DNA of 32,157 nucleotides from Aureispira sp. GTDB taxonomy: Bacteria > Bacteroidota > Bacteroidia > Chitinophagales > Saprospiraceae. Below the pieces are notes generated by a model. It saw nothing but the letters and a program-made list of their open reading frames with translations, was not told where the DNA came from and made no database searches. Position numbers and translations under genes: made by a program. The number at the start of each line of letters is the position of its first letter. The first letter of the stretch is position 1. Location of the stretch: assembly GCA_024222455.1 (NCBI GenBank), contig JAAEPD010000506.1:1-32157 (forward strand), in the 5' to 3' direction. Positions 9,569 to 30,044 of the stretch are shown piece after piece.

Positions 9569-9592
9569 TTTCACTTATAAACAGCTTTTATC

Positions 9593-12082: not shown

Positions 12083-12083
12083 A

Positions 12084-13673
12084 ATGCATAGGCAGATTAA
12101 GTTCATAGGACTAAGCCTACTGATGTTCATCAATGCTTTATCCTTTGGTCAAAACAATACATTATCAGTTGTAGAGATTGAGCAAAATGCTATTCATTTT
12201 TCTTGGCAAGACTTAGAGCCATCTATGGTAGAGTTAGAGTATGGATTAAGCCCAAAATTAGAGTTGGGCTTAGTTGAGGGCTTGTCTTTAACTAACCTTG
12301 AGGATGCTAGTTTTTACTATGTAAAAGCCAAAAGTAAAGAGCCCCAATCAAGGCAAGAATCAGAGATTCAATTGTTCTCAACTGCATCCAATTCTTCTGG
12401 GAAGATAACTGTTTATTTTAACCAACCTGTTAATAACAGTGCATCAACTCTAGCAGATGCATTATACAGACCTGCATTTGAAGATAGTCTTATTGCTTAT
12501 ATCAATCGTACTCAATACACCTTGGATGTTTGTAATTACAATACAGGAAGTTTGCCTATTGTCAATGCCATTAACGCTGCAAAAACAAGGGGCGTTGTTG
12601 TTCGGTATATAGCTGCAGATAACACACTAACCAACAATGACGAATTGGCAAATCTTTCTTCGACTATTCCTATGATACAGAGACCTTCGGATGGAGAAGT
12701 AATGCACAATAAATTTTTGATTATAGATGTTGCAGATTCCTTGCGTTCTAATCTAATAACAGGTTCAGTAAATCATACTAACAACAGTTGTCATCAAGAC
12801 TATAACAACCTTGTTATTATTCAAGACCAAGCATTAGCCTTAGCTTATGAGCTAGAATTTGAAGAGATGTGGGGAAGTGCGGGGAATACACCTAATCTGA
12901 CAAATGCAAAATTTGGCAATGCAAAAACAGATAACACACCACATTCCTTCTCTATTGGAGGGGTGCCTGTTCAGCTTTATTTTTCGCCATCAGATGGTAC
13001 TACAGCTCAGATAGAGAGTGCGATACTCTCTGCAAATACAGACATGCAGTTTGCGCTGCTGACCTTTATAAATAATGACTTAGGTGATGCTGTAGAAACC
13101 ATACACAATTCGGGCGTTGACGTAAAGGGGATTATTGAGAACATATACTATTTTGGATCAGAGTATAATGGCCTGAAGAATGCAGGAGTTGATGTTCACT
13201 CTCATTTTTCAAAACCCCACTTTCTTCATCATAAATATGGAATAGTTGACGCCAACAATAGTTTGAGTGATCCGCTTGTAATTACAGGATCTCACAATTG
13301 GACAAACTCTGCCGAAAATGATTATGACGAAAATACACTAATCATACATGATGCAGTCATTGCGAATATGTATTATGAAGAATTTATGGCACGTTATGCC
13401 CAAATCACAAATACTACTAGAATTGAAGGTCAAGAGCAAACTCAAGTTCGAGTTTTCCCAAATCCTATTGTAAATACTCTGAATATTGAATCAAAATCCC
13501 CCATTAAGGATATAAAGATCATTAATTCCTTGGGACAATCAGTTTACATTGCAACTAGTTTAAACCACAAAAATTTAGAAATAGACTTAAGTTTTCTATC
13601 TAGTGGCCTTTTCTATCTAGCAATAGAATTAGATAAAACAACAATAATCCATAAGATAAATACCTTGAAATAA
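12084..13673 (+). CDS. Secreted phospholipase D-family (HKD) protein with T9SS sorting domain
   Basis: This 529-residue enzyme-like protein has a signal peptide (MHRQIKFIGLSLLMFINALSFGQ), a fibronectin-III-like segment (about 25-100), and two phospholipase D repeats. Both catalytic HxKx4D motifs are intact: HNKFLIID at 208-215 and HHKYGIVD at 382-389. Each is followed by the usual GS/N element (TGSVNHTNNS, TGSHNWTNSAENDYDENT). A T9SS C-terminal domain (VFPNPIVNTLNIES ... LSSGLFYLAIELD) ends it. The family cuts phosphodiester bonds in phospholipids or DNA, and some members are nucleases such as Nuc. With one HKD per half, a single chain would form the active site. Substrate is unknown, but export makes environmental DNA, host or prey lipid, or matrix DNA plausible. 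It is tightly coupled to the preceding surface-protein gene. Confidence 0.9.
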   Translation: MHRQIKFIGLSLLMFINALSFGQNNTLSVVEIEQNAIHFSWQDLEPSMVELEYGLSPKLELGLVEGLSLTNLEDASFYYVKAKSKEPQSRQESEIQLFSTASNSSGKITVYFNQPVNNSASTLADALYRPAFEDSLIAYINRTQYTLDVCNYNTGSLPIVNAINAAKTRGVVVRYIAADNTLTNNDELANLSSTIPMIQRPSDGEVMHNKFLIIDVADSLRSNLITGSVNHTNNSCHQDYNNLVIIQDQALALAYELEFEEMWGSAGNTPNLTNAKFGNAKTDNTPHSFSIGGVPVQLYFSPSDGTTAQIESAILSANTDMQFALLTFINNDLGDAVETIHNSGVDVKGIIENIYYFGSEYNGLKNAGVDVHSHFSKPHFLHHKYGIVDANNSLSDPLVITGSHNWTNSAENDYDENTLIIHDAVIANMYYEEFMARYAQITNTTRIEGQEQTQVRVFPNPIVNTLNIESKSPIKDIKIINSLGQSVYIATSLNHKNLEIDLSFLSSGLFYLAIELDKTTIIHKINTLK

Positions 13674-14970: not shown

Positions 14971-15000
14971 GCCTGCCCTATAGGGTAGGCTTTTTATTTT
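14971..15000. terminator. Bidirectional terminator between convergent genes
   Basis: GCCTGCCC (14971-14978) pairs with GGGTAGGC (14983-14990) around TATA with one G-U pair, and TTTTTATTTT follows on the plus strand. This is a good intrinsic terminator for the plus-strand block. The minus-strand methyltransferase stop codon (14978-14980) lies inside the stem, so the same hairpin encodes that protein's final residues. Confidence 0.75.
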
Positions 15001-15667
15001 TTAGTTCAAAGATGAAATTGGTCTCTCCCCATACTTTTTCTTCATGTACTAATTTCCAATCAAAACTAGCCTCAGTTTTAGATATTTCTTGCATTCGGTC
15101 GATAGCACAATCATCCGAAAGGATCATATACACCACAGAATTCTCCGCTAAATATGCTGGCATATCAGCAAAAAGTCGATGAAAATATTCAAAATTTTCT
15201 CCACAAAAAAAGGCTTTCTCTCGGTCTGAGTTAGCTACTTGTGGAAAGTAAGGAGGATTAATAATAATATAGTCAAAGGTCTGTGAGGATATTGCATTAA
15301 ACAAATCAGATTCAATAATATCCAACGATAGACTATTGGTAATTTTGCTCTCTTTCATAGACTCTACAGCAACAGGATTTATATCCGAAGCTAAGACCTT
15401 AGCTCCTGCTCTGTTGGCAGCAGCAGCAATCAGCCCACTTCCCGCTCCCAACTCTAATAGTTTTTTATCCTTTAGGTCTAATTCTAATACAAATCGAACT
15501 AAAATTTTGGTGCTAAACAGCAAACCAGGATGAAAAACAGATGGAGCGACCTTTATTTTCAAGCCCTCATAATGATACCATCTATTTTTGGACAAATACC
15601 ACTTGTATATTCGCCAAAGAATAGGATTTGTTAACCTTCTGATATATCTACGCAATTTATCTATCAT
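14978..15667 (-). CDS. Class I SAM-dependent methyltransferase (HemK/MTS-like)
   Basis: This 229-residue methyltransferase has motif I LLELGAGSGLIAAAA, the acidic motif II VLASDINPVAV and the catalytic IIINPPYFP (NPPY) motif. The NPPY motif is typical of enzymes that methylate the amide or exocyclic nitrogen of Gln, adenine or guanine (HemK/PrmC, RsmC, TrmN6 types). It is shorter than PrmC and lacks PrmC's helical N-domain. The first 25 residues are Arg/Trp/Tyr-rich. The upstream cobalamin radical SAM gene ends only 2 nt before its start, so they form one transcript and may act on one substrate. A small-molecule or RNA target is equally possible. Its C-terminus overlaps the terminator hairpin. 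Confidence 0.85.
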   Translation of the reverse strand: MIDKLRRYIRRLTNPILWRIYKWYLSKNRWYHYEGLKIKVAPSVFHPGLLFSTKILVRFVLELDLKDKKLLELGAGSGLIAAAANRAGAKVLASDINPVAVESMKESKITNSLSLDIIESDLFNAISSQTFDYIIINPPYFPQVANSDREKAFFCGENFEYFHRLFADMPAYLAENSVVYMILSDDCAIDRMQEISKTEASFDWKLVHEEKVWGETNFIFELKNKKPTL

Positions 15668-15669
15668 CC

Positions 15670-17178
15670 CTAAAACCCTTCTATTTCTGGTTGTCTATAC
15701 TTGAGCCAAAACCGCTGTAACACTTTCAGCTCATAAGGATATTTATACAAACCTGTTTTGTATCGAGCCGCCGAAACTGACCGCATCACCTTGCGTTGAA
15801 ACTTGCTCAATTTGGTGTCAGATACTGTTGGGTAATAAGCGTTCAAAACAGTTTCAAAATTTTTAATTTTATCGACCATAGCTGGAGTTAACCAAGGAGT
15901 TAATGGATTTTTGCGCAAATCAAAATTTTGCCATTGAGGAGTTATCCAATCCTCCAGTTTTTCGGGAAACTGAAAACCGGCTTCAGTTATCCGTTCAAAA
16001 AGCTCTGAACCTTCGGTTGGCACAGGACTGTACATATAGATAATAATCTCTGTATTAGGGTTAATCTTTTTTATTTCTTTGATAAACTGAATATCTGAAT
16101 CTATCTGAGCCATCACTTTTTGGGGGGTTTCGGCAGGTAAGCCCAAAACAAAGGAATATTCAGGAATAATATCCACTTTTTTCATACGAGCAGCAAAGGA
16201 TTTGATTTGTTCAGCCGTCTGCTTGCCACCTTTATCCATTTGCTTCAAAATATCGTCATTCCCACTCTCTGCACCATAAAAAATCATTTTGCAGCCAGCT
16301 TTGCGCATCAGATGCAAGGTTTCATCCGAATATTTGTCAATAGTATCGATACGCCCTTCACCCCACCAAATCATATTTTCGTTGAGCATCATTTTAGAAA
16401 ATGCTGCTACTCGTTTTTCAGAAACAAAGAAGTTATTGTCATGAAATTCAATAGCATCTGCGCCATATTCCTTCTTCATTTTCATGACATCCTTATAAAT
16501 ATTCTCTGCACTTTTGCCTCTCCATCTAGCATTATAAATAGGAACTACTGCACAAAAGGAGCACTTAAAAGGGCAACCTACACTAGAGTGATAAGCTAAT
16601 GTTTTTTGGCCTAAATAGGTCTTTCCTAAATACCCTTCTATAGGATAAAAGGTGTTGAGATAATCATAAGGCAATGGTGCTAATCTATCTTGATCAAGCA
16701 AGCTTTCTTTCTGTGTTTTTATAATATCTCCATCCTGATTCTGATAGATCAAATTTGGGATAAACTCATAAGGCAAATCATTCTCCAAAGCCATCAATAA
16801 GGCAGGAAAAGTATTATCGCCAGGTCCATTAATTGCAAAGTCGATATAAGGTGCACTTACTACTACCTTATATTGGTTAGCAGGAAAATAACCTCCCCAT
16901 ATATTGACAATATTGGGATATTCTTCTTTAGCTTTTTTTGCAAAGGGAATAGCTTGGCTCAGTTGAGGCCCAGGCATAACGGTCATACCTAGGTACTTAA
17001 ATTCACCTGTATCTAAGTAGGATTTTATCTTTTGGTATGGATCTTTTTCTAAGTTACCATCAACCAATACATACTCAAATTTACCCTGTATAGATGCTCC
17101 TACTTGTAGTATACTGTTAGGTATTCTATACTTAGAATTTGCACTACGAGGATTAAAAAGGATTACTTTGTTAGACAT
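15670..17178 (-). CDS. Cobalamin-binding radical SAM enzyme
   Basis: This 502-residue class B-type radical SAM protein has an N-terminal Rossmann domain for cobalamin (VGASIQGKFEYVLVDGNL ... NIWGGYFPAN ... GPGDNTFPALL). The radical SAM cluster motif CPFKCSFC follows (C202, C206, C209), then strands typical of the TIM barrel (FHDNNFFV, WGEGRIDTI, IFYGAESGNDDILKQMDKG). Such enzymes methylate unactivated carbons or make C-C bonds. It starts 58 bp from a divergently transcribed lipoprotein and is followed 2 nt later by a methyltransferase gene. Product unknown; the surrounding glycan/lipid genes suggest envelope or natural-product chemistry. Confidence 0.9.
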   Translation of the reverse strand: MSNKVILFNPRSANSKYRIPNSILQVGASIQGKFEYVLVDGNLEKDPYQKIKSYLDTGEFKYLGMTVMPGPQLSQAIPFAKKAKEEYPNIVNIWGGYFPANQYKVVVSAPYIDFAINGPGDNTFPALLMALENDLPYEFIPNLIYQNQDGDIIKTQKESLLDQDRLAPLPYDYLNTFYPIEGYLGKTYLGQKTLAYHSSVGCPFKCSFCAVVPIYNARWRGKSAENIYKDVMKMKKEYGADAIEFHDNNFFVSEKRVAAFSKMMLNENMIWWGEGRIDTIDKYSDETLHLMRKAGCKMIFYGAESGNDDILKQMDKGGKQTAEQIKSFAARMKKVDIIPEYSFVLGLPAETPQKVMAQIDSDIQFIKEIKKINPNTEIIIYMYSPVPTEGSELFERITEAGFQFPEKLEDWITPQWQNFDLRKNPLTPWLTPAMVDKIKNFETVLNAYYPTVSDTKLSKFQRKVMRSVSAARYKTGLYKYPYELKVLQRFWLKYRQPEIEGF

Positions 17179-17236
17179 TTTTGATATTTTTAAGAGTATG
17201 AATTTATAACTTATTTCATTTACTATTCAATTTTTC

Positions 17237-18394
17237 ATGTTACAACTATCAATATTGTCTAAAAGATTTAGATGGATTCTTTATATCCTTGTCCCTTTTT
17301 GTGTTTGGAGTTGTACAAAAGATAAACTTCCTTATGACCTAAATATTCGATTAAAGTACTATTATCAAGCTACTATTAAAGACAAAACTAGCCTTAAAAC
17401 AGCTCTAAAATGGTATCTATCACATTTAGGCGCTCAATTAGCCCCCAATCAACTAGACAATGCTATTACATGGGTGAATAGTGATGATCTTTTAGATTTA
17501 GATTTTGGAGAAATTGGATTTCCAGAATATGCAACTCCTGTTTTAGCACATATTATTAAAACAATCAAAAATAGTGATGCCTACAAACAGTTAAACAGTA
17601 TAGATCTTGGTCGTTTTGTTATGCTCACGCTCAACAGCAGTCACCATTACTATGCAATTACAGGGGTATACAACTCTTTAGATGATTTTCGAGCTGCGTA
17701 TAACTTTGAGGATACGGCTATTATCACCTTTTATCCAGGAGAATCCTCCATAGCCGTAGCCGATCGGATTGTTTATCAAACTCACAATGGCGAAAACCAT
17801 TTTTTAGATATGGCTTTTATAGCAACAGAGGGTAAAGGCAGCGTTCAGCAAGGTAATTTTGAAGCAACAGAATTTGAAGTATTTGATTTCATGCCCAATG
17901 GACAGCCCCGATTTGCTATTTACAATAAGCAAGGGCAGTTAAAAACAGCTGTTCCTGCTCTGTTAGGAACAGCAGGAAAACCTAGTAAATGTATGTGGTG
18001 CCATGAATCTAATATTCAACCTAACTTTACAGGAATAAGTCCTCATACTAACTACTTTAATAACAATATCTATCAGAAAAAAAACTTGCTGGATTCTATT
18101 CGCAGCCAGATTATATCTGAATTAGACTATCAGCAGCTACAGGAACATAGTTTAATGGAATTGCTTTACATCTCGTTTATGGAGCCTAATGTAGAGCGGT
18201 TGGCGGAAGAATGGGATTATTCCATGACCGAGACTCAAACACTATTACAACCATATACCACACATACACATCATGAATACCCTCAGTTGGGGCCATTGTA
18301 CAATAGAGCAGAAATTGACCATTTGGGCCCACACCCTATATTGCAAGTCCCAGAATCAGCAAGAGAGGAATCTAGTTTTGAACCCAATTACTAA
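17237..18394 (+). CDS. Lipoprotein with a single CXXCH motif
   Basis: This 385-residue lipoprotein has a hydrophobic leader and lipobox FCVWSC with the acylated Cys at 26. I do not recognise the main domain. It contains one CMWCH motif (252-256), the sequence signature of covalent haem c attachment, inside GKPSKCMWCHESN. Met or His further on could be the second axial ligand, but I cannot tell which. The protein has many His and Tyr residues and ends in an acidic tail. It is the only plus-strand gene within the minus-strand radical SAM region, divergent from one radical SAM gene and tail-to-tail with another, where the two stop codons share bases. A periplasmic electron-transfer or sensing role is possible. 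A structural or zinc CXXCH is the alternative. Confidence 0.83.
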   Translation: MLQLSILSKRFRWILYILVPFCVWSCTKDKLPYDLNIRLKYYYQATIKDKTSLKTALKWYLSHLGAQLAPNQLDNAITWVNSDDLLDLDFGEIGFPEYATPVLAHIIKTIKNSDAYKQLNSIDLGRFVMLTLNSSHHYYAITGVYNSLDDFRAAYNFEDTAIITFYPGESSIAVADRIVYQTHNGENHFLDMAFIATEGKGSVQQGNFEATEFEVFDFMPNGQPRFAIYNKQGQLKTAVPALLGTAGKPSKCMWCHESNIQPNFTGISPHTNYFNNNIYQKKNLLDSIRSQIISELDYQQLQEHSLMELLYISFMEPNVERLAEEWDYSMTETQTLLQPYTTHTHHEYPQLGPLYNRAEIDHLGPHPILQVPESAREESSFEPNY

Positions 18395-19479
18395 CCCCCC
18401 ATAGCACTACAACATCTAGTACAAGCTGGTAATAATCCACCAGCTTTATTCAATTCCTTTCTAAATTTCGCTATAATTTCACTATTCCAAATTTCCTTAA
18501 GCGATTGTTCATGAATATTTCCTATAGTCAGATTGTAACAACGACCATGCGCAGGAATAACATTCCCATCTGATTTAACCATTATATTAGAAAATGCATC
18601 ATTGCAACGTTTCCCAAATAATTTATCTGGTTGATGGTAAAATGCCTCTAAATTCGCTCTACTGTCCACATTAGGAGAAAACCCTATATCAAATGGGACA
18701 TCCAAGCTTTTAAGGGTCTGTATCTCTTCCCAAAGTACATCTAAATCCATTTTAGACACATCTATTTCATCAATATTAGAATCTGTGGCAGGATAAGAAT
18801 TGCCATAAATCAAATTGTGCTGAGCAGCCATATCCTCAGTAGTAAAATTGGTGTGCATGAATCCCATATATGCAATTGGCAGCTCTCTAAAATAATTGGC
18901 AAACTCTAATAAATGTCCAATATTCCACTCTGTAATCACACAGAATATAGAAATTTTGGGTGCATCAGGATACAAGTACAATGCACCAATTCCATCTATT
19001 GCTTTCTGAAAAGATTTAGCATGTCCTCTTATTTCGTTATGTATAGCTTGAGGGCCATCTAGAGATATAAAAATTTCGTTCAACCCCGATTTCACTAAAT
19101 CTTCTGCCTTTTGACGTAGTGTTAATGCGTTGGTTGTAATAGTTGTATAGATTCCTTTTTTGTTGGCATAATCCAAAGACTCTATAAGATGAGGGTAAAC
19201 TAAAGGTTCTGTAAATCCATACCCTAATTTAGTGCTTGGAAAATACTCTTTAGTTTGGTCTATTATCTTATGAATAAGTTCTAGGGGCATATTTAGCGGT
19301 CTAGTCCCTACTAGGTTTTGAGCAAAGTTACTGTCTAAGTTTTTAGTTCCTACATCACACATTTTGCAATGCAAATTACACACATTATTAACCCCCAACA
19401 CCAACCAACTAGGGTCATACCACAAGTGTTTTGGCCAATAACTAACATTCAGTTTTTTTAAGCGATTATGTAACTTCAT
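18391..19479 (-). CDS. Radical SAM/SPASM domain protein
   Basis: This 362-residue radical SAM enzyme has cluster motif CNLHCKMC (C34, C38, C41) close to the N-terminus. A partial TIM barrel follows (GYGFTEPLVYPHLIESL, TTITTNALTLRQKAEDLV, EIFISLDGP). A SPASM/twitch C-terminal domain carries further cysteines (CNDAFSNIMVKSDGNVIP, GRCYN, and C353, C356, C357 in ACTRCC). SPASM enzymes use auxiliary Fe-S clusters to modify peptides, sugars or lipids. Its start overlaps the flippase gene by 14 nt, so it is the last cistron of a coupled operon with sugar and lipid genes. No RiPP precursor peptide is visible beside it, which favours a sugar or lipid substrate. Confidence 0.9.
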   Translation of the reverse strand: MKLHNRLKKLNVSYWPKHLWYDPSWLVLGVNNVCNLHCKMCDVGTKNLDSNFAQNLVGTRPLNMPLELIHKIIDQTKEYFPSTKLGYGFTEPLVYPHLIESLDYANKKGIYTTITTNALTLRQKAEDLVKSGLNEIFISLDGPQAIHNEIRGHAKSFQKAIDGIGALYLYPDAPKISIFCVITEWNIGHLLEFANYFRELPIAYMGFMHTNFTTEDMAAQHNLIYGNSYPATDSNIDEIDVSKMDLDVLWEEIQTLKSLDVPFDIGFSPNVDSRANLEAFYHQPDKLFGKRCNDAFSNIMVKSDGNVIPAHGRCYNLTIGNIHEQSLKEIWNSEIIAKFRKELNKAGGLLPACTRCCSAMGG

Positions 19480-20665
19480 TGTTTATTCTTATTGTTTTCA
19501 CTAAATAACTAAACCCAATCAATAACAACCACTGAACAATCGCTGTAGAAATTATTGCCCCCAATGCCCCATAAGTAGGAATCAAGAGGTAATTGCAGAT
19601 CAAATTGCAACAAGCCCCCCAAAAAAAGCCCCAAGCCATCTTAGTTTCTAAATGGTGCTTAATCAATAGGTGTGTTTGCAGAGCATATCCAAAAAAAGGA
19701 ACTAGCATTAAATAACCTGCAATATAAAGATATACAGAAAAACGAATTCCATACACCCAAGGTAATATAAAATATAAGGCGATAATTATAGGTCCTGTCA
19801 AAAAGATTCCAGCTAAAAACGCTTGTTTACTTAAACGAGTTAAAGATTTGAAAGGCAATCGATATATCGTTTTTAAGAATGGACTTATTACGATCCGAAG
19901 CCCTACAATAAAAAGCATTAAATACTTAAAAAAAATTTGATACTCCCCCAAGGTTTTTTTAGGCAGATAATAGGCTACTCCATAGAGATCAATTCGACTT
20001 TGTACAAATCCTACCATAGCTGGAATAAAAAAAGGAAAGGCTCCTTTCAAAAACATTAGGCTAAACCTCCATTTTAGAACACTAAATATAGTTTTCTTGT
20101 AAAACACTAGATAGCCCAAAGCTCGAAACCAAGACCATATTACATAGAGCTTGACTAACAATAAAGGACTAATATTATCTATACTCCAATAAAACAAGAC
20201 CCCAAAAATAGCTAAACTGATACATTCTAGAAAAATTAGCCATTTAAATGCCCTAAAGTAAAGATTGAGTGGTTCAACGGAACGAATAATAAAAATTGCA
20301 AACAACCATAAACACAAATAGATATATAGTTCAAAATCATCCTTATAGAGGAATAAAAAGATTAGTCCTGTAGCTACAAAAAACACTAATCTTGTTGTAA
20401 ATGATTCTTGCCACAATTGGGCAATGTTCATTGGTGTTTTACTGAATTCTCGAAGTAAATAAGTATTCTGTCCCCAATTGCAAAGCATAGCTGCCAAATT
20501 CAACACAATGAGGCAGCTAACTACTTCACCCCATATATATTGTGAACTATAAACAATCACAAAATAAGAGATCAAAAACTGCCCCACCAGGCTAACTAGT
20601 TGGAGCCCTCCATAACCACTAACCCATCCTAAACGGCTTCTTATTTTTGCTAGTTTTGCTCCCAT
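19466..20665 (-). CDS. Polysaccharide flippase (Wzx/MOP-like membrane protein)
   Basis: This 399-residue polytopic membrane protein has about 10-12 hydrophobic helices, the first at GLQLVSLVGQFLISYFVIVY. The pattern fits the Wzx/polysaccharide-export branch of the MOP superfamily, with an internal AFPFFIPAMVGFVQSRIDLYG and a C-terminal LLIPTYGALGAIISTAIVQW segment. These move undecaprenyl-linked sugars from the cytoplasmic to the periplasmic leaflet. It overlaps the sulfotransferase-like gene upstream by 16 nt and the SPASM gene downstream by 14 nt. It is the strongest sign that the operon makes a lipid-linked surface glycan, though MOP transporters can also carry other lipid-linked substrates. 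Confidence 0.85.
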   Translation of the reverse strand: MGAKLAKIRSRLGWVSGYGGLQLVSLVGQFLISYFVIVYSSQYIWGEVVSCLIVLNLAAMLCNWGQNTYLLREFSKTPMNIAQLWQESFTTRLVFFVATGLIFLFLYKDDFELYIYLCLWLFAIFIIRSVEPLNLYFRAFKWLIFLECISLAIFGVLFYWSIDNISPLLLVKLYVIWSWFRALGYLVFYKKTIFSVLKWRFSLMFLKGAFPFFIPAMVGFVQSRIDLYGVAYYLPKKTLGEYQIFFKYLMLFIVGLRIVISPFLKTIYRLPFKSLTRLSKQAFLAGIFLTGPIIIALYFILPWVYGIRFSVYLYIAGYLMLVPFFGYALQTHLLIKHHLETKMAWGFFWGACCNLICNYLLIPTYGALGAIISTAIVQWLLLIGFSYLVKTIRINNEVT

Positions 20666-21480
20666 TGCTCTAATAAGCTTTTACGCTCCTCATTAGTATA
20701 AAAATGTTTAGCATATTTAGACCCCAACATCTTTTGAAGGTAATCTTTAGGCAGTTTTATATTTTTTTTAAACTCTTGATATAGTGCTGCATAATCTTTT
20801 TGGCTGCCTATGTTTTGATTAACTAATTGAAAAGAAGGAATATCTAAAAATCTTCTGATACAATCCTCTTTTTCGGAGTCTGGTAAATCTACTCGAAATA
20901 AGAGCATTTCTATATTCTCATTCTGATACAGTTGGTATTTTTTAGTAGTATCAAAACTGTGTTGATAAACATCAATCCCTATACAAGAAGCCAGTTCTTC
21001 CTCAAGCCAAACTAAAGGATAATCATGTGGTAATTCTTTCAAAAATGTTTGTTTTAATTCTTCTTGGTTTCCATGGTATTGTGTAGGACTCACCCCATTA
21101 TAATATCGAAAAACTTCAAAAAAAGCAGACAAATTTCGGCCAATAGGCTCTCTGACTGCTGTAATTATTTTTAATGGCTTTTTAGGCAACACTTTTTTAG
21201 TATAAATGAGGCCTCCTGTATTCTTAGAGTCTGGCCACCACCCTTTTGCCCTACAAATTTCATACTCTAACTGAATTTTTTCTTTTTTTAAAGTATGCAC
21301 ATGAAAGGTAGGAAAGGATGTCTGTTTTTGGATAGAAGAATATACAGATAGTGAACCTACTTTTGCCATAGTATAAACAACTACAGGTGTTGCATCGCTG
21401 CTCAAGGCTTTTAATGCTTTTTGGTATTGCCTCTGTCCTTTTATATGATAATTATAGAATGATTTTAGTTTATAAATCAT
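20650..21480 (-). CDS. Sulfotransferase-like capsular polysaccharide synthesis protein
   Basis: This 276-residue cytosolic protein begins with a P-loop-like phosphate-binding turn, VVVYTMAKVGSLSVYSSI. It has a second nucleotide motif, ITAVREPIGRNLSAFFEVF, matching the 5' and 3' phosphosulfate-binding motifs of PAPS-dependent sulfotransferases. It resembles proteins annotated as putative capsular polysaccharide synthesis (PF10364-like). The likely reaction is sulfation of a sugar or lipid. Its ATG overlaps the stop of the upstream glycosyltransferase gene (ATGA), and it overlaps the flippase gene downstream by 16 nt. Substrate unknown. Confidence 0.75.
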   Translation of the reverse strand: MIYKLKSFYNYHIKGQRQYQKALKALSSDATPVVVYTMAKVGSLSVYSSIQKQTSFPTFHVHTLKKEKIQLEYEICRAKGWWPDSKNTGGLIYTKKVLPKKPLKIITAVREPIGRNLSAFFEVFRYYNGVSPTQYHGNQEELKQTFLKELPHDYPLVWLEEELASCIGIDVYQHSFDTTKKYQLYQNENIEMLLFRVDLPDSEKEDCIRRFLDIPSFQLVNQNIGSQKDYAALYQEFKKNIKLPKDYLQKMLGSKYAKHFYTNEERKSLLEQWEQN

Positions 21481-23069
21481 GGGAGTTTTATTTTTAGTAA
21501 GGTATAAAACCCTAATCCTCTATTCTGATCAGACAAATAATATACTTCTTTTTTATTGACTAACACAGGTTTGAGCTTATTGCTTTTGGTCTTGGTCAGC
21601 TGTTGATTTTTATAATAAACCTGATTATTCTGAATATTTACATGAATAGTATCATAAGTTGCTATAGCTATTGTTGTTTGCTTATGTAATGGAGCAGGAG
21701 CCATCCAATATTTATACACCAAATAACCATCTTGAACATTATAATCTGCTATTAAAACATCCTTGATCTCATTAGAAACATAATTGTTTTGAGGTGGTTT
21801 AGGACTAATCAGTCCAAGTAATATAAATCCTGCAAAAACAGGAGTTATAAGCAACATTTTAGGCTCTTTCCTATTAGCTATACTTGGGGATAAGTATCTA
21901 TAATAAAAGAATATAGTTAGTAATACATAAACCTTAGGAAATTTTAGAAATAATGGGAGTTTTAGAAAAAAAGCTAAAGGGATATTAGAATACAAAAATA
22001 TCAACCCCAAAAAAGCAATCCTATGTCCTAATTTCAGTGTAGACGTCTCTCGCCAAAGCACCACCAAAGGAAAAAGTAGTAAAACACTAGCATAACTACT
22101 CCAACCTGGAGATAATAACATACAAGCAATCAGCCAAAGTCCTAATTGTTCAAATATATCCTTTTTGCTTTTCCATGAAAAAAGAACTGCTGTGCCTACT
22201 ACTACTGTTTTATAAGTAGCCTGCATTAATACATACCCTATATAAGAAGGTATCAATGGCGATGGATTGAGCATCGCATCGTAGACAAAAATATTTTTAA
22301 ATAGCATCGTAGCTGACTTAGCTGCAGGTGTAAACCCATCGTAAAAGTCCCCATTATTAGATTTTGGAAAAACTTCTAATAAGTAATAAATCCAATCTAT
22401 TATATCTACACTCACTAAAGAAAATAAGACTAAGGCCAAACAGATACTTCCTAATATTACTAGGGTTCTCAATTGTATTTTCAGTAACAACAACAAGCCC
22501 AATAAAACAGGAAATACTTTTAGTAAAATAGCTAAACCCCAATAAATTCCACCAGCTAGTTCCTTCTTTTTAGAATAAGCTATCAATCCTTCTGTCAGCA
22601 GAAAAAAGATCAGAAAATAGGCCTGTCCAAAATATAGACTATTGCGTAAAACAGTATAAAAAGTAATAGGCAACACTAGCAATAACCATCTTGGAAACTT
22701 GAGTTGTTTTTGTAGGTGCATCAATGCCCAAAGAAATAAGCCTACACTAAGTATATTAAATACTAGTTTAGCCATTTCGGGCTGCTCCAAAAGGGTAAAG
22801 GGAATAAAAAAGAAGGCAAAAAATGGTGTATTGGGATAAAATGCTACAAACTTCTCTTCGAAGCCTGCTTCTAGTACCTTTACATTAAAACTTAGTGCAT
22901 CATATATAGAACTATCAAAAAATCCCTGCCTCAAAAAATCAGCAGCAAAATAGGCATTCGAAAAATCATGTAAGGGATAAAAATAAGCCTTCCAAACCCA
23001 AAAAACTAGGCAAAGTCCTAAAGGAGCCCAAAACAAGATGGGTGATATTTTAGAAGTCTCTAGTTTCAT
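21477..23069 (-). CDS. GT87-type polyprenyl-phosphate glycosyltransferase (DUF2029-like)
   Basis: This 530-residue integral membrane protein has a long multi-helix N-terminal part (about 400 residues, roughly 10 helices). A soluble beta-rich tail of about 100 residues follows. The first periplasmic loop holds HDFSNAYFAADFLRQGFFDSSIYDAL, where the Asp/Phe-Tyr pattern fits the catalytic loop of GT87/PIG-M-like glycosyltransferases that use polyprenyl-phosphate sugars. The tail (KYWMAPAPLHKQ ... YYKNQQLTK) is unfamiliar. The start codon shares a base with the upstream radical SAM stop (TAATG), and the stop overlaps the next gene (ATGA). The enzyme is predicted to add a sugar outside the cytoplasmic membrane; the donor is not deducible. 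Confidence 0.78.
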   Translation of the reverse strand: MKLETSKISPILFWAPLGLCLVFWVWKAYFYPLHDFSNAYFAADFLRQGFFDSSIYDALSFNVKVLEAGFEEKFVAFYPNTPFFAFFFIPFTLLEQPEMAKLVFNILSVGLFLWALMHLQKQLKFPRWLLLVLPITFYTVLRNSLYFGQAYFLIFFLLTEGLIAYSKKKELAGGIYWGLAILLKVFPVLLGLLLLLKIQLRTLVILGSICLALVLFSLVSVDIIDWIYYLLEVFPKSNNGDFYDGFTPAAKSATMLFKNIFVYDAMLNPSPLIPSYIGYVLMQATYKTVVVGTAVLFSWKSKKDIFEQLGLWLIACMLLSPGWSSYASVLLLFPLVVLWRETSTLKLGHRIAFLGLIFLYSNIPLAFFLKLPLFLKFPKVYVLLTIFFYYRYLSPSIANRKEPKMLLITPVFAGFILLGLISPKPPQNNYVSNEIKDVLIADYNVQDGYLVYKYWMAPAPLHKQTTIAIATYDTIHVNIQNNQVYYKNQQLTKTKSNKLKPVLVNKKEVYYLSDQNRGLGFYTLLKIKLP

Positions 23070-24469
23070 TAGAAACGCTTTGTGTATTGCATTCCTAAAG
23101 CTGCCTTGAGCGCCTTGAGTTTAAACTTGATGGCAGATTTGCTAAAACGCCCTTTTTCTAAAGTTTGTTTATGATAATGTACTTCATTCACCACCTTTTG
23201 CACTGCAAAATCATAAAACCGTCTAGGATAAGTTCGTTTGAAATCTCGATCTCGATCAGTGCTTGTATTCCAGACCAACTCCTTAGTCTGTAAGGCTTCT
23301 ACTCGATCATACAAACCTGTTCCTTTTATCGGATAGGCTACTGTAATAGTAAAATAATCCGGATTTGATACTTTTAGGTGGTGAATTGTTTCTGCTATAT
23401 CCTCTTCTGTTTCGCCTGGATAGCCTAGCATAATAAACGTACCTGCTTCTATCCCATTTTTCCGAGTCAACTGTATCATATCTCGCACTTGGTTTACATC
23501 TACTCTGCGATCCATTGCATCAATGATCTTTTGAGAGCCACTTTCTGCACCAATCCACACTCGAAAAGCACCTGCTGCTTTTAGCAACTGAATCACCTCC
23601 CCATTCATTCTATCTGCACGAGTTATACACTCAAAAGGGATAACGGCATTGCGACGAATCACCTCTTCCTTAAATGCTTTTAGCCACTTATGGCTTACCG
23701 TAAACACATCGTCTACAAACCATACTGTATCTGGATTGTAATGTTCTTTGATATACAACAATTCATCAACTACCTTATCTGGAGAACGTCTTCTATAACT
23801 CTGCCCATAAACTGCTGTGCTACACCATTTGCAAGTATAAGGACAGCCCCGCTGAGTGCTAATAGAAACAGCATTGAGCCCATGACGTTTTTTCCACGCA
23901 TCTAAATATTGGTGTAAATCTATCTTTTTCCGATTAGGGAAAGGTAAAGCATCTACAGGGCGAATTCGTTGCCGTTGTGCAGTTTTGATGATATCCCCTT
24001 CTCCATTACGATAAGCCAAACCAGTAATATGTCCAAACTCTAGGCGATTGCCCTGTGTTATGGTCTGAGCAATTTCGAGCATAGTTTGTTCGCCCTCTCC
24101 TATCACTATTATATTTGCTCCAGTATTGAGATAATCTTCTATATTATAAGTTACATCAGGCCCACCCAAAACCACTATACTCTCCTTTAGTTTAGGGTTA
24201 GAACGGATATATTGAACCATCTTAATGACATTAACTTTAGTCATCAGATTGGTGTAAATAGGTATAATATCAGGTTGTTGCTCTTCTAGATATTGATAGA
24301 GTTTCTCTTTGGATGAAAAAGTGGTATCAAAAACCTCATTAGGGAAATTGTGTTGCTCTAACCATGCTGACAGGTATAGTATCCCCAAAGGTGGATAAGG
24401 GCGCATTATTTCTTGCTCCTTCTCATCTTCATGTATGAAATATCCATGTGTGAATACTATTTTTGTCAT
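23069..24469 (-). CDS. Cobalamin-binding radical SAM enzyme
   Basis: This 466-residue protein has an N-terminal cobalamin-type Rossmann domain (MTKIVFTHGYF, RPYPPLGILYLSAWL, IVVLGGPDVTYN, IIVIGEGEQTMLEI). The radical SAM motif is CPYTCKWC (C209, C213, C216), followed by WFVDDVFTVS, GAFRVWIGAESGSQ and MLGYPGETEEDIAETI. It is closely related in layout to the enzyme encoded at 25509-26975, so the two are probably paralogues acting on related substrates. In this family the usual chemistry is methylation or ring formation at unreactive carbons (hopanoid, P-methyl, pyrrole pathways are known examples). Its start is 24 nt after the end of the methyltransferase gene, and its end is coupled to the glycosyltransferase gene by TAATG. 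Confidence 0.9.
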   Translation of the reverse strand: MTKIVFTHGYFIHEDEKEQEIMRPYPPLGILYLSAWLEQHNFPNEVFDTTFSSKEKLYQYLEEQQPDIIPIYTNLMTKVNVIKMVQYIRSNPKLKESIVVLGGPDVTYNIEDYLNTGANIIVIGEGEQTMLEIAQTITQGNRLEFGHITGLAYRNGEGDIIKTAQRQRIRPVDALPFPNRKKIDLHQYLDAWKKRHGLNAVSISTQRGCPYTCKWCSTAVYGQSYRRRSPDKVVDELLYIKEHYNPDTVWFVDDVFTVSHKWLKAFKEEVIRRNAVIPFECITRADRMNGEVIQLLKAAGAFRVWIGAESGSQKIIDAMDRRVDVNQVRDMIQLTRKNGIEAGTFIMLGYPGETEEDIAETIHHLKVSNPDYFTITVAYPIKGTGLYDRVEALQTKELVWNTSTDRDRDFKRTYPRRFYDFAVQKVVNEVHYHKQTLEKGRFSKSAIKFKLKALKAALGMQYTKRF

Positions 24470-24493
24470 AGTCTCTGCTTCTACTTCAAACGT

Positions 24494-25300
24494 TTACTTA
24501 TCTGATTGTTGCATTTGTATCATAAAATGATCTGCAGCATTCGCAAAAAAAGTGCCTCTAGGCACCCATTTTTCTATTCTATTTAGATTATTAATCAAAA
24601 AAGGCTTATTCTCAAACCATTTATCTAGATACGATGGAGGCAAGAATAGCCCTATCGCATTGACTTGTTTATATCTAAAATCTGCTTGAAAATAACGATA
24701 AAATTCTTTGGTAGCATAGTACCAAGTATCAATGGATGCCGTATCGCTCAATCTAGCCGAAATAGGTTCTTTGCTTCTGCGTCTCCATGCTTTTTTGAAC
24801 TCCCTCTTTAAAGTAAAAAACAGGGTTTCCCACCAACAAAATCGAGGCATCACTACTGCTACAAAAAAACCTTTGGGCTTTAATAGTTTGGCAGCAGATT
24901 TAGCTAATTTTTCTAATTGCTGAGGAGATAAACAGTTCAATCCACCAAAGTTAGAAAATATTAAATCATACTTTTTATCAACACCAAGTTCTCCAATAGT
25001 TCCTGCGTCTAGTGTCTGACAACTAATGCTGTTTTCTAATTTAAAATGTGTTGCTTTCTGCTGAGCAACAGACACCATTTCACTAGAAATATCTGTGGCC
25101 AATACTTGACAACCTTGCCGAGCCAACCAAACTGCATCTTCGCCTGTACCACAGTTCAATTCTAAAACATCCTTTATGGTATTTTGTTGGAATAGTTTAC
25201 TTAAATGCCAATGCACTCGTTCTCGCTGCATTCGACCAGTAGTCGTATTCGTAAACTCACTATCATAATAGGAGGCTGTGTTATCAAATGGCTGAATCAT
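24494..25300 (-). CDS. Class I SAM-dependent methyltransferase (methyltransferase-11/25 type)
   Basis: This 268-residue enzyme has motif I VLELNCGTGEDAVWLA, acidic motif II VLATDISSEMV, and YDLIFSNFGGLNCLSPQQLE in the motif IV region, where small-molecule O-, N- or C-methyltransferases position substrate. There is no NPPY motif, so it is not a nucleic-acid or protein amide methyltransferase. The region around 150-200 is basic (TLKREFKKAWRRR). It lies between the two cobalamin radical SAM genes: 208 nt after one and 24 nt before the other, so it probably heads the coupled operon. The substrate may be a sugar, lipid or quinone-like molecule. Confidence 0.85.
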   Translation of the reverse strand: MIQPFDNTASYYDSEFTNTTTGRMQRERVHWHLSKLFQQNTIKDVLELNCGTGEDAVWLARQGCQVLATDISSEMVSVAQQKATHFKLENSISCQTLDAGTIGELGVDKKYDLIFSNFGGLNCLSPQQLEKLAKSAAKLLKPKGFFVAVVMPRFCWWETLFFTLKREFKKAWRRRSKEPISARLSDTASIDTWYYATKEFYRYFQADFRYKQVNAIGLFLPPSYLDKWFENKPFLINNLNRIEKWVPRGTFFANAADHFMIQMQQSDK

Positions 25301-25508
25301 TCTAAAATAGGGTCTTTAAAGTATTGTTTGAAATCAAAAAAAATAATTCAAGCTTAATAATTATGACGCAATTGAGTATAGCCTGCTTTAGATACTTAGA
25401 TAGTTATTCTACTCAATTCCTCAGCTAATCAGTTCCTCAAAAAACACCCCTTATAGAAAAATCAACTGCTCAAACTAAATGCACATTTCTTTAAAAAAAT
25501 CCCATTTT

Positions 25509-26975
25509 TTATCCCTTAGCTTTCAAAGCGTTCAATTTCATCTTATCCATAGCAGCTGCAGGGATATAATAAAATGTAGCTAATGCTGTTTTTAATGTCT
25601 TTTTGTTGAGTTGGCTAGGCGAAGTCAATATCTTCTTGATAGTCTGCCATCCTCGTTTTTTCTGAAAGCGTTTATGCACTAAACGATGCAAACGTCTATA
25701 GAAATCAGGAGAGAATGTAGCTTTGTACATCATAGCCAAATCATCTGAGTCCTCCCAGTTTTGTTTGTCTTTTAGTTGTGACTGAACTACCTCAAAGAAC
25801 TTGGTTCCAGGCAAAGGGTAGGATACCGAAATCCCTATATCATCAGGCATTAAATCTAATACCATTTGGATCGTTTTTTCTATATCTTCCATCGTTTCAC
25901 CAAGGTAACCAAACTGCAAAAAGAAGGCTACTTTGACTCCTTTTCTCTTTAGTAACTTAGTAGCTTCATAGATTTGTTCGATTTTGGTGCCCTTGTCCAT
26001 AGCATCCAATATCTTTTGAGAGCCAGACTCTGCACCAATCCAAACAGTATCTAATCCAGAAGCTGCTAGTGCCTCTATGGTGTCTTCTTTGAGCAAAAGA
26101 TCTGCTCTAGATTGTATTTTGTACTGAATGGATAGCTTTTTCTCTGCTAATAAATCTCTAAACTCTTGTACCCAACCAGGTTTAAGCCCAAATATATCAT
26201 CACAAACCCAAAAGTATTCGGCCCCATAAGTCTTAGTCAGCATTTCAACTTCGTCTACTACTCGCTGAGGAGATCTAGAGTTGTAACGGTTGCCATAAAT
26301 TGGTTTTGCACACCAATTACATTTATAAGGGCAACCTCTAGTTGTTGCTATATTCAACCCAAAGTAGCCATGCTTTTCGACCCATATTTTTCTATAATCC
26401 TCTATATTGATCAAATCCCATGCTGGTGATGGCAAGTCATCCAAACTTTTAATAACTGACCTTCTTGCATTGCGCACTATTGTTCCATCTTGGTTGGTCC
26501 AAGCTATACCTAGGAGCTGAGAAACATCTGTATTCCCTGCCTCTAGCTGTGTTACCAGTTCTTGCAAGGTCAACTCTCCTTCTCCGAGCAGTATATAATC
26601 AGCTCCTTTTTCCAAATACATTCCATAATGATCGGTAGAATCTGAACTGGATACAATAATCCTGCAGCCCAAATCTTTGGCGTAGGCAATCATATCAAAA
26701 GCAGCCTCTCGCATACGAGTTAGACACATTTTGGTGAGGTAGTTAAACCCATCATCATAGATAATAAAATAATCGGGCTGTTGCTCTTGAAGCAACGGAA
26801 CTACATCTTGAATATCTTCCTTAAGATTAGTATCGTACAAACTTACGTTATGTCCATCTTGACGCATCAATGCAGCTGCATAGATGGTTCCATAGGGAGG
26901 ATAAGGCTGTGCTGTTTCCCACTGTTTTGGGTCAAATCTATAAAAATATGAATGTGTAAATAGTAGTTTGGCCAT
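25509..26975 (-). CDS. Cobalamin-binding radical SAM enzyme
   Basis: This 488-residue protein has an N-terminal cobalamin-type domain (MAKLLFTHSYFYRFDPKQWE, PYPPYGTIYAAALMRQDGHN, GADYILLGEGELTLQELV). Radical SAM motif CPYKCNWC (C215, C219, C222) is followed by YFWVCDDIFGL, DTVWIGAESGSQKILDAMDKG and FFLQFGYLGETMEDIEKTI. The opening HxYF ... PYPPxGxxY pattern is shared with the 23069-24469 protein. A C-terminal basic extension of about 90 residues follows the barrel. It is transcribed alone or as the first gene of the region: the next gene starts 208 nt downstream and a repeat element lies upstream. Product unknown. Confidence 0.9.
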   Translation of the reverse strand: MAKLLFTHSYFYRFDPKQWETAQPYPPYGTIYAAALMRQDGHNVSLYDTNLKEDIQDVVPLLQEQQPDYFIIYDDGFNYLTKMCLTRMREAAFDMIAYAKDLGCRIIVSSSDSTDHYGMYLEKGADYILLGEGELTLQELVTQLEAGNTDVSQLLGIAWTNQDGTIVRNARRSVIKSLDDLPSPAWDLINIEDYRKIWVEKHGYFGLNIATTRGCPYKCNWCAKPIYGNRYNSRSPQRVVDEVEMLTKTYGAEYFWVCDDIFGLKPGWVQEFRDLLAEKKLSIQYKIQSRADLLLKEDTIEALAASGLDTVWIGAESGSQKILDAMDKGTKIEQIYEATKLLKRKGVKVAFFLQFGYLGETMEDIEKTIQMVLDLMPDDIGISVSYPLPGTKFFEVVQSQLKDKQNWEDSDDLAMMYKATFSPDFYRRLHRLVHKRFQKKRGWQTIKKILTSPSQLNKKTLKTALATFYYIPAAAMDKMKLNALKAKG

Positions 26976-27152: not shown

Positions 27153-27611
27153 TTATTCAGCTTTTTCAGACTTAATCAACTGTATAGCTTCCGAATTGAT
27201 GCAATACCGCAATCCACTAGGCTCTGGTCCATCCGGAAATACATGTCCCAAATGCCCATCACAAGTATTACACATGACCTCTATTCGTACTCTACCAAAA
27301 GAAGCATCATTCTTATATTTTATAGCATTTTCCTTGATAGGCTGCGTAAAACTTGGCCAACCTGTTCCAGATTCAAACTTTATGGAAGAATCGAACAGTA
27401 ATGTATCACAGCAAATACAACTATATTTACCTGCATCATGTGCATGGCAAAGTGCTCCTGAGCCTGCTCTTTCAGTACCTTTTAGGCGAGTTATTCTAAA
27501 CTGTTCTGGACTGAGTATTACTTTCCATTCCTTCTCCGTTTTTTCAACTCTTCTATCAGGTAAAAGATTGCCTTTGTTGGCAAATTTGATTACATCATTC
27601 CAGTTTATCAT
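27153..27611 (-). CDS. msrB: Peptide-methionine (R)-S-oxide reductase MsrB
   Basis: MsrB reduces methionine-R-sulfoxide in proteins. The 152-residue protein has the zinc cysteines CICC and CNTC, the SGTGWPSFTQPI active-site segment, GHLGHVFPDGP, and the catalytic Cys137 in RYCIN. I start at ATG 27611 (MINWNDVIKFA). The 15 extra upstream codons run into the preceding gene and do not match MsrB proteins. The gene begins 19 nt after the stop of the glutaredoxin-thioredoxin reductase fusion, which would supply reductant, so the two form an operon. Length is normal for a single-domain MsrB. Confidence 0.95.
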   Translation of the reverse strand: MINWNDVIKFANKGNLLPDRRVEKTEKEWKVILSPEQFRITRLKGTERAGSGALCHAHDAGKYSCICCDTLLFDSSIKFESGTGWPSFTQPIKENAIKYKNDASFGRVRIEVMCNTCDGHLGHVFPDGPEPSGLRYCINSEAIQLIKSEKAE

Positions 27612-27630
27612 AACTTTATATTTTAAATTC

Positions 27631-29037
27631 CTATTTAAGAAAATTTCGAATACCATAACTCACCAAAACACCTTCACCAGTAGCCGCAGCTACCTGAGCT
27701 ATAGCTCCTTCTCTACAATCTCCTGCTGCAAAAATCCCTTTAGTTGAGGTTTCCGCCAACCCTGTGGTTTTTATAAATCCTCTGTCATTGAGTTCAACAA
27801 TATTTTGAAAGGATTTTGTATTTGGGATTAACCCTATAAAAATAAAGACACCATCCCCTTTAATTATTTCCCCCTGATTAGTATTGTTATCTCTTACTTT
27901 CAGTCCATCAAATAAACCTCGCTCATTAGCCAAAAACTCAACAGAAGTTTTATCCATGTGTGTTGTAATATTATCAATAGTAGACAGCTTTTCTATATAG
28001 GTTTCTGATGCCGTAAATGCTGCTGTATTGTTTACAATTTGCACTGTTTTGCAAAAACCAGATAAGAAAATGCCTTCCTCCAAAGCAGAGTTGCCTCCTC
28101 CTATCACCACAACATCTTTGTCTCTATAAAAAGCCCCATCACAGGTTGCACAAAAATGAATACCAGACCCAATCAGTTCATTCTCATTAGGGATTCCTAA
28201 TTTTCGATAAGTTGATCCTGTGGAAAGCACCACTGTTTTTCCGAAAAAAGAAGATGTTTTGGTTTGGATGGTAAATAGATCTCCTTCTTTTGTAATATCA
28301 ACCACTTCTTCTCCTGTCTTTATTTTGGCACCATATGTTTTGGCCTGCTCTTCCATTTTATCCATTAATTTGGGCCCCGAAATAGAAGTAAACCCTGGAT
28401 AATTCTCTATTTTTTCGGTTAAGAAGGCATTTCCCCCTATATTCTTTTTCTCTAAGATCAGAGAATCAAATCGATCTCTTTGAGCATAAATAGAGGTTGT
28501 TAAGCCTGCTGCACCGCCCCCAATAATAATAGTGTCGTAGATTTTCTGTTCCTTTTCTACATTGATAGACAAAAGGGCTGTCAATTCAGCATTATTAGGA
28601 TTGGTATATGGTTTACCATCAATCAAAATAGTTGGAATAATACGTTTACCATTATTGATTTGCTCTACTTTATTGGTAGCCCAAGCATGCTCATCTACAT
28701 CAATAAACTCAAAGTTGATCTTATTGTCTCTCAAAAAGTTTTTAGCTCTTCTACAGTCTGGACACCAATCTGCTCCATACAGTTGCACCTGCCCAGCTTC
28801 GTTTATACCAAAAACAGCAGCTAATTCCTTATTATCAGGGTTGGTATATGTCTTATCATTGATTATTAATGTTGGGATAATCCGTTTTCCGTTGTTTATC
28901 TGCTCTACCTTTGCAGTTGCATCCTTATCCAAATCAACATCTATAAAATCATAACTAATGTTATTCTCTTTCAAATAAGATTTAGCTCTTCTACAATCTG
29001 GACACCAATCTGCTCCATAAAGAATTGTACGGTTCAT
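27631..29037 (-). CDS. Tandem glutaredoxin-like domains fused to thioredoxin reductase
   Basis: This 468-residue flavoprotein carries two near-identical glutaredoxin-like domains at its N-terminus, each with a CPDC redox centre (C12/C15 and C92/C95) and the cis-proline segment RIIPT. A complete thioredoxin reductase follows from about residue 167: FAD site IIGGGAAGLT (GGGAAG 173-178), redox pair CATC (C296, C299), NADPH site VIGGGNSALEEG, and C-terminal GIFAAGDCREG. Electrons should pass NADPH to FAD to CATC and then perhaps to the attached glutaredoxin arms. Ordinary thioredoxin reductase is about 315 residues, so the extra 165 are the two fused domains. The 80-residue repeat is also visible in the DNA. 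It is followed 19 nt later by msrB. Grx-TrxR fusions with one Grx exist; two in tandem is unusual. Confidence 0.93.
   Translation of the reverse strand: MNRTILYGADWCPDCRRAKSYLKENNISYDFIDVDLDKDATAKVEQINNGKRIIPTLIINDKTYTNPDNKELAAVFGINEAGQVQLYGADWCPDCRRAKNFLRDNKINFEFIDVDEHAWATNKVEQINNGKRIIPTILIDGKPYTNPNNAELTALLSINVEKEQKIYDTIIIGGGAAGLTTSIYAQRDRFDSLILEKKNIGGNAFLTEKIENYPGFTSISGPKLMDKMEEQAKTYGAKIKTGEEVVDITKEGDLFTIQTKTSSFFGKTVVLSTGSTYRKLGIPNENELIGSGIHFCATCDGAFYRDKDVVVIGGGNSALEEGIFLSGFCKTVQIVNNTAAFTASETYIEKLSTIDNITTHMDKTSVEFLANERGLFDGLKVRDNNTNQGEIIKGDGVFIFIGLIPNTKSFQNIVELNDRGFIKTTGLAETSTKGIFAAGDCREGAIAQVAAATGEGVLVSYGIRNFLK
28558..29037 (-). repeat. Tandem 240-bp duplication coding the two glutaredoxin domains
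   Basis: Codons 1-80 (29037-28798) and 81-160 (28797-28558) of the fusion gene encode domains that agree through YGADWCPDCRRAK, VEQINNGKRIIPT and YTNP. The period is exactly 80 codons. Synonymous differences between the copies, for example in the KRIIPT codons, indicate that the duplication is not very recent. Confidence 0.9.
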
Positions 29038-29240
29038 AACTTCTACTATTTTTGATTTAAGATTTAGACGTTGTTTAAAAATGAATTGTCAAAGGCTATT
29101 GAAACGCTAATTTTCACTATAGTGTCGTTATTTTTATCAACCGTAGCTAAAACTACGCTTTCAAAAAATGTCTAACTCTAGTCAAAATCAGTACTCAAAC
29201 CCTATTTTGAACTCCATTCTTAAACAACTTTTTATTAAAA

Positions 29241-29597: not shown

Positions 29598-29619
29598 TTT
29601 GAATATCCTTTTATATGGG

Positions 29620-29949: not shown

Positions 29950-29973
29950 AATTATTATTGTTTTTAATTGTTA

Positions 29974-29987
29974 CGATACAAATATCG
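29974..29987. promoter_or_regulatory. Palindrome upstream of thioredoxin gene
   Basis: CGATA and TATCG form a 5-bp inverted repeat around CAAA, 24 nt before the thioredoxin start codon. On the coding strand it contains GATATTTG, one mismatch from the Bacteroidota -7 box TAnnTTTG. It could be an operator overlapping the promoter, but chance is a real alternative. Confidence 0.3.
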
Positions 29988-30017
29988 GTTGAATTGGGTA
30001 GTTATGGTTAGGCATTT

Positions 30018-30044
30018 TTTCCCTAGGAATTATCAATTTTTCCC
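30018..30044. repeat. 27-bp direct repeat, copy at msrA 3' end
   Basis: A 27-bp sequence beginning TTTCCCTAG and ending ATCAATTTTTCCC matches 30682-30708 at 25 of 27 positions. This copy spans the msrA stop codon and its last few codons. The two copies bracket the entire msrA gene and its upstream region. Confidence 0.8.

Follow-up and report, generated by a model that had tools for sequence, protein, structure and literature searches.

MoeK5, the one cobalamin-dependent radical S-adenosylmethionine (SAM) enzyme used in making the actinomycete antibiotic moenomycin, acts on a sugar. The likeness of this phosphoglycolipid pathway to the locus described here lies in cobalamin radical SAM methylation within a glycolipid pathway (PMC8992657). 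Enzymes of this class are described as carrying out methylations, ring contractions and rearrangements, with a small fraction of them studied (PMC8992657). In the HpnI-HpnK-HpnJ pathway of bacteriohopanetetrol cyclitol ether, a radical SAM enzyme (HpnJ) is reported to work on lipid-linked glucosamine after a glycosyltransferase and a deacetylase (PMC12583986). Likewise, a Bacteroidota O-glycosylation locus (LFG) is reported to combine a flippase with variable transferases and to yield methylated glycans (PMC12871550). Here we analyzed a 32,157-nt stretch of DNA from Aureispira sp. (contig JAAEPD010000506.1, termed the window in its entirety), in which ten genes between positions 14978 and 26975, lettered A (14978) to J (26975), include four for radical SAM enzymes. 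We regard it as rather likely that a cassette conserved in Bacteroidota, of which this region is one version, makes a radically modified, probably sugar-like unit that is delivered to the cell surface.

The cassette overlaps with each of these systems in part. Unlike HpnI-HpnK-HpnJ, it has three B12 enzymes together with a nucleotidyltransferase and methyltransferases, and no hopanoid gene was found in the window. LFG begins with metG, and the terms "radical SAM" and "B12" occur nowhere in the main text of its report (PMC12871550); identity with LFG was rejected, as no metG is present among the 27 window open reading frames (ORFs) scanned, the rest of the genome not having been searched. With Wzx/Wzy surface polysaccharide loci the cassette and its relatives share flippase-like, GT4, Wzy-like, sulfotransferase and deacetylase genes as well as neighbors resembling a fixed site, but the constant part of the cassette is its radical-enzyme core and not a set of sugar-nucleotide genes. 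The kinds of enzyme are known, and no description of a constant core with exchangeable glycan modules was found in the open-access literature searched.

The original prediction, made from the sequence alone, had named nine genes in this region, namely three cobalamin radical SAM enzymes, a SPASM enzyme, two methyltransferases, a GT87 glycosyltransferase, a sulfotransferase-like protein and a flippase. Pfam scans of the 27 window ORFs, sequence motifs and a structure model of F confirmed this content and its coordinates. The outer borders also match those of the conserved set; the gene list was incomplete, as gene C belongs to the region as well and a nucleotidyltransferase family of the conserved set (f7) is missing from the window. 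Across the 7.76-Mb assembly there are 23 radical SAM matches, four of which lie on this single 32-kb contig. The ten genes are:

A, 14978..15667, minus strand: HemK-like (MTS) methyltransferase with an NPPY motif, core (PF05175, 55.7 bits).
B, 15670..17178, minus strand: cobalamin radical SAM enzyme by its domains, core (PF04055, 55 bits; PF02310, 31.3 bits).
C, 17237..18394, plus strand: probable exported lipoprotein with a CxWCH heme-c motif and a cytochrome c'-beta/P460-like model, accompanies GT87 (motif, model).
D, 18391..19479, minus strand: radical SAM/SPASM enzyme by its domains, optional partner of the core (PF04055, PF13186).
E, 19466..20665, minus strand: putative flippase of a Wzx-like family, swappable (f11 family profile, 237.5 bits).
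F, 20650..21480, minus strand: predicted sulfotransferase-fold protein of the PF10364 family, swappable (PF10364, 86.9 bits; structural matches).
G, 21477..23069, minus strand: GT87 membrane glycosyltransferase, swappable (PF09594, 73.5 bits).
H, 23069..24469, minus strand: cobalamin radical SAM enzyme by its domains, core (PF04055, 89.7 bits; PF02310, 46.2 bits).
I, 24494..25300, minus strand: class I SAM methyltransferase, core (PF13649, 62 bits).
J, 25509..26975, minus strand: cobalamin radical SAM enzyme by its domains, core (PF04055, 83.9 bits; PF02310, 29.9 bits).

The overlaps of 1-16 nt reported for the block D to H were reproduced (D/E 14 nt, E/F 16 nt, F/G 4 nt and G/H 1 nt, all in the same direction), and C and D overlap convergently by 4 nt. 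This coupled five-gene block was not seen in relatives and was rejected as the conserved unit: D is not always present, and relatives carry different flippases or exporters, transferases and sulfotransferases where the window has E, F and G. Within the organism's own family (100 genomes, that of the window included), three others hold a D ortholog at 59-62% identity, and the remaining matches score below 43 bits. G049, one of these, retains A, B, C, D and H in unchanged order; where the window has E, F and G it carries a GT4 transferase, a different methyltransferase and two different sulfotransferases. Its contig stops just past H, and in the remaining two genomes the contig stops near D.

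A D-profile scan in which each species was represented by a single genome yielded 176 relatives, of which the best 80 loci were compared, a set that is hence D-selected. Where 83 loci are counted, three contigs are included twice (L030=L044, L031=L066, L032=L074), none of them among the 61 loci with full flanks. Relatives holding D are mostly Bacteroidota by title, including Flavobacterium, Winogradskyella, Kordia and Roseivirga; six titles fall outside (Gammaproteobacteria, BD1-7 clade, Elusimicrobia, Verrucomicrobia, Thermoanaerobaculia and Thermoflexales), some of these being short contigs of metagenome bins. The recurring order is f7-J-I-H, a variable stretch, and then D-B-A, with I between J and H in many relatives. 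The 61 full-flank D loci contain B in 56 cases and A in 55 (both in 54), followed by H (32), I (26), J (25) and f7 (19).

J was followed up in 34 loci, comprising the 36 full-flank loci that lack J minus L034, L038, L089 and L103 (32 loci) and two in which it was already there (L096, L097). A match over at least 438 of 488 residues was present elsewhere in the genome for 30 of the 32, the other two being an edge fragment (G125) and a weak match only (G112). By coordinates compared by eye, J lies on the D contig within ~50 kb in about 26 of the 32, the exceptions being L056, L063, L070, L092 and L099, with L077 uncertain. Nine regions were fetched at length, and D and J share one contig in all nine. 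A further 20 J loci without D were picked by hand from J-bearing genomes: f7 is present in every one and immediately precedes J in 15; I occurs in 18, B in 13, A in 12 and H in 9, and B-A-f7-J-I-H is contiguous in five of them (L143, L144, L154, L155 and L156).

Adjacent same-strand genes of the core, and D with B, overlap or are separated by no more than 10 nt in most cases (f7/J 18 of 21 pairs, J/I 19 of 20, I/H 25 of 26, D/B 28 of 38, B/A 46 of 57); since ORFs were taken from the first possible start, these overlaps are upper bounds. Sequence divergence is also correlated among H, J, A and I (r 0.53-0.87), with the highest values for H-J (0.87), A-H (0.86), H-I (0.82) and A-J (0.81). The conserved unit is f7-J-I-H plus B-A, whose members occur together in different genomes amid changing transfer and export genes. 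In Kordia algicida (L120-L121), ~24 kb of other genes separate H from I, some of which look like a Dnd-type DNA modification island from their sequences, as read without a search.

A census of 395 Bacteroidia genomes, which corrects for the choice of loci by D, recovered J in 58, B in 41 and D in 11. J is present in 40 of the 41 genomes with B (Fisher p about 1e-39, with no correction for kinship), and B and J lie on a common contig in 29 of these 40. A second, H-like match of ~35% identity occurs in 35 of the 58 J genomes and lies on the same strand no more than 5 kb from J in 31 of them. Among the 11 genomes with D, 10 hold J and 10 hold B, which makes D an optional addition to the core.

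The B12-binding domain PF02310 exceeds its cut-off in H (46.2 versus 32.1 bits) and falls just below it in B and J; scanning further members detected it at E<=0.001 in all 20 for B and in 23 of 25 for J. A CxxxCxxC cluster motif is conserved in all three proteins (C202/C206/C209 in B). Judged by motif and domain, B, H and J are cobalamin-dependent radical SAM enzymes. None of them reaches the cut-off of any family among the best 25 NCBIfam models per protein. HpnJ (TIGR03471), which is within the four best models of H, J and B, was rejected as an identity (141, 133 and 114 bits versus a cut-off of 577.6), as were BchE (TIGR02026; 173, 166 and 116 versus 481.35) and the ladderane-type lipid B12 radical SAM family (TIGR04072; 143, 122 and 51 versus 360). 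By sequence, the closest solved relative of J and H is PDB 9CCB (84 and 74 bits), and that of B is AprD4. The 9CCB protein is MgmA, reported as a methyl-coenzyme M reductase glutamine C-methyltransferase (PMC11796369); MgmA differs in having a protein substrate, and J and H are far from the model of its activity, TIGR04014 (121 and 100 versus 360). Kordia, Flavobacterium terrae and a BD1-7 genome (L120, L122 and L132) have one more radical SAM protein of the cobalamin type, their fourth, near H on the opposite strand; it is related to B and scores 221-259 bits with the B profile.

D combines a radical SAM core (PF04055, 60.8 bits) with a SPASM domain (PF13186, 43 bits versus a cut-off of 21.5), and its cysteines C34/38/41, C292, C314, C353, C356 and C357 are conserved in 84 sequences, which identifies it at the sequence level as a radical SAM/SPASM enzyme. 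Its solved relatives include a sulfatase-maturating enzyme and, ranking after it as a weak match, cytosylglucuronate decarboxylase. In A, the motif N137-P138-P139-Y140 is conserved at 90% or more across 80 sequences; NPPY is typical of enzymes that methylate amide or ring amines.

The company kept by the core is mostly that of surface glycan loci. Of the 61 full-flank D loci, 50 contain a gene from one or more of seven families of transferases, flippases or exporters. Other recurring neighbors are a polysaccharide deacetylase with a GNAT protein, GT2, GT9, a carbamoyltransferase and GDSL/AlgX-like, arylsulfotransferase-like and Wzy-like genes, with heptose genes in one locus. Near the A end, 16-17 loci share a set of ribosomal-protein and tsf-like genes (which we take to be those for L13, S9, S2 and EF-Ts), resembling the fixed site of polysaccharide loci.

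Among the exchangeable genes, G is a GT87 enzyme (PF09594, versus a cut-off of 25). None of the 61 full-flank loci has both GT87 and the GT4 family f4 (14 have only the former and 32 only the latter), and C is present in 12 of the 14 GT87 loci; both patterns survive the collapsing of similar loci, which is the only way in which kinship was handled in the co-occurrence p values. E itself matches no Pfam family and has 10 hydrophobic segments in a simple scan. PF01943 (Polysacc_synt) is absent from E itself and matched by 4 of 25 family members (best E 2.5e-4). Neither G nor the E family has solved relatives by sequence.

For F, the Pfam name of PF10364 is putative capsule protein, and the sulfotransferase reading derives from the structure model and not from Pfam. 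All 50 structural matches shown for this model (pLDDT, the predicted local distance difference test, of 75; built from 4 sequences) are sulfotransferase-fold chains at modest scores (Z 7.5-8.8, root-mean-square deviation 3.7-5.2). By sequence, the single match of F to solved structures (E 0.07) is of no use, and Foldseek returned nothing at E<=0.001 with the F and C models, whose fold assignments come from a second aligner. The model places F in the 3'-phosphoadenosine-5'-phosphosulfate (PAPS) sulfotransferase fold, with sulfate transfer as the predicted activity. F is present in 3 of the 80 loci and in L150, always with G and C, and follows G directly in three of these four, as in the window. 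In L030:3017-6324 and L050:11089-12549 we also saw arylsulfotransferase-like proteins (PF05935), two with type IX secretion system (T9SS) sorting tails, a hint of more sulfate chemistry in some genomes.

C carries a CxxCH heme motif, with C252-x-W254-C255-H256-E257 invariant in 18 sequences and a lipobox-like Cys26 nearly so, and it is probably a lipoprotein with a heme-c motif. Its model (pLDDT 84) gave cytochrome c'-beta or P460 proteins in 12 of the first 13 structural matches (Z 4.7-6.4, that is below 8, over 102-116 residues), suggesting a c'-beta/P460 likeness at a modest score; the top 50 Foldseek matches contain no such protein.

The f7 family has a nucleotidyltransferase domain. In this Aureispira genome its homolog lies on another contig (C78), and its score with the f7 profile, 311 bits, is in the range seen for f7 genes that adjoin the core. 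Next to it are a Wzy_C gene and two GT4 genes, whose own best relatives (in L109, L110 and L079) sit beside the core. The pathway therefore appears split over two places in this organism.

Elsewhere in the window, a compact methionine sulfoxide repair set adjoins the radical SAM genes at 27153-30538 (MsrB, a fused glutaredoxin-glutaredoxin-thioredoxin reductase, thioredoxin and MsrA); strong homologs of it were counted in none of the 83 compared loci. Near the cluster, at 7775-13673, are three proteins with T9SS sorting tails, one of them also with PLD-like domains. An SNF2 helicase, an AAA_21 ATPase and a weak HNH-like gene follow one another at 418-6184 and are possibly a defense set.

What we observed is the membership and co-inheritance of the genes, from which we infer every chemical step. 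In the proposed pathway, f7 with J and I (and H where present) would convert a common cytosolic precursor, either a nucleotide sugar or a lipid-linked sugar as in the HpnJ precedent, by radical C-methylation, dehydration or rearrangement. B and A, with D where present, may then add further radical and N- or O-methyl changes. In this genome the unit would be sulfated in the cytosol by F, and E would carry the lipid-linked product across the inner membrane. Outside, G may add a sugar donated by polyprenyl phosphate, where the heme lipoprotein C is also predicted to act. Finally, Wzy- and GT4-type genes, which accompany f7 on the other contig in this organism, could extend or polymerize the product into a surface glycan. 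The lipid-linked molecule proposed originally, with radical chemistry, glycosylation and perhaps sulfation, is upheld as a coherent glycan or glycolipid pathway with flipping and optional sulfation, and its C-methylation is one of several reactions among which sequence cannot distinguish.

Several observations weigh against a surface-delivered product of a single cassette. The original prediction turned on whether the genes are scattered in relatives; the core is mostly together, but in G393 D lies ~2 Mb away from it, G388 and G448 carry D on other contigs, and f7 is on a separate contig here. H is absent from 11 of the 20 J loci without D. The divergence of B correlates weakly with that of A, D, H, I and J (r 0.18-0.47) and not with that of G (0.00), in a B set that probably contained a paralog and fragments. 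An initiating phosphosugar transferase was not found by Pfam among the window ORFs scanned. E-type flippases and the ABC exporter f22 occur together once and alone in 26 and 15 of the 61 full-flank loci, an exclusivity that drops to p 0.01-0.06 once similar loci are collapsed. Moreover, 11 of these 61 loci lack all seven transferase, flippase or exporter profiles, and 5 of the 20 J loci without D (L140, L148, L149, L152 and L153) match none either. L152 and L153 consist only of f7-J-I with an f17-type methyltransferase, L140 of a bare B-A-f7-J-I block and L148 of a bare A-f7-J-I-H block. The product is therefore possibly a small molecule that is not always glycosylated.

These bare and minimal loci speak for the strongest alternative, in which the product of the core is a free small molecule (a cofactor, or a compound like an aminoglycoside or nucleoside) and the glycan genes are frequent neighbors with no functional tie to it. 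The nucleotidyltransferase domain of f7 is consistent with such a product. The same holds for the solved relatives, as sugars or nucleosides are the substrates of AprD4 (for B) and of cytosylglucuronate decarboxylase (a weak match of D). On the other hand, the transferase, flippase or exporter genes in 50 of the 61 full-flank D loci often stand between core genes, and the f7 of this genome lies in a Wzy/GT4 locus. We consider a free small molecule to be a minority explanation, worth keeping in view.

Less probable still, and rather unlikely in our judgment, is that the substrate of the B12 enzymes is a membrane lipid itself, of the hopanoid, ladderane or polyprenyl type, which the transferases would then decorate. 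Both H and J have BchE, HpnJ and TIGR04072 in their top four NCBIfam models, which points in this direction, but the scores to all three are far under their cut-offs and Pfam revealed neither a terpene cyclase nor a fatty-acid gene in the 27 window ORFs scanned.

Maturation of a ribosomally synthesized and post-translationally modified peptide (RiPP) by the SPASM enzyme, B12 methyltransferases and an amide N-methyltransferase is very improbable: the enzyme classes resemble those of polytheonamide-type clusters and scores to the RiPP methyltransferase TIGR03975 are moderate (75-98 versus 281.85), but the core genes are nearly gapless, the widest small intergenic ORF families (in 16 loci, beside a carbamoyltransferase gene where inspected, and in 12 loci) do not include the window, and none of the 15 widest is shared with it in a comparison of 103 loci (three contigs twice) plus the window at BLAST E 1e-4, which short divergent or distant precursors can escape.

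Returning to the surface-delivered, sugar-like unit, it is conceivable, as a bolder and more tentative proposal, that about one in seven Bacteroidia genomes (the 58 of 395 with J) make an undescribed class of surface glycoconjugate. Its defining residue might be a carbon-methylated or carbocyclic sugar-like residue produced by up to four radical enzymes, and the GT87 version might be finished by a periplasmic P460-like heme lipoprotein. Three co-inherited cobalamin radical SAM enzymes here form the constant core inside otherwise variable loci. The cassette provides a defined gene set, a predicted place to look (the masses of glycans or glycolipids) and a minimal version, f7-J-I, that could be rebuilt. 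If the reading of a sugar-like unit is right, a widespread modified sugar would have been overlooked by annotation based on sugar-nucleotide genes.

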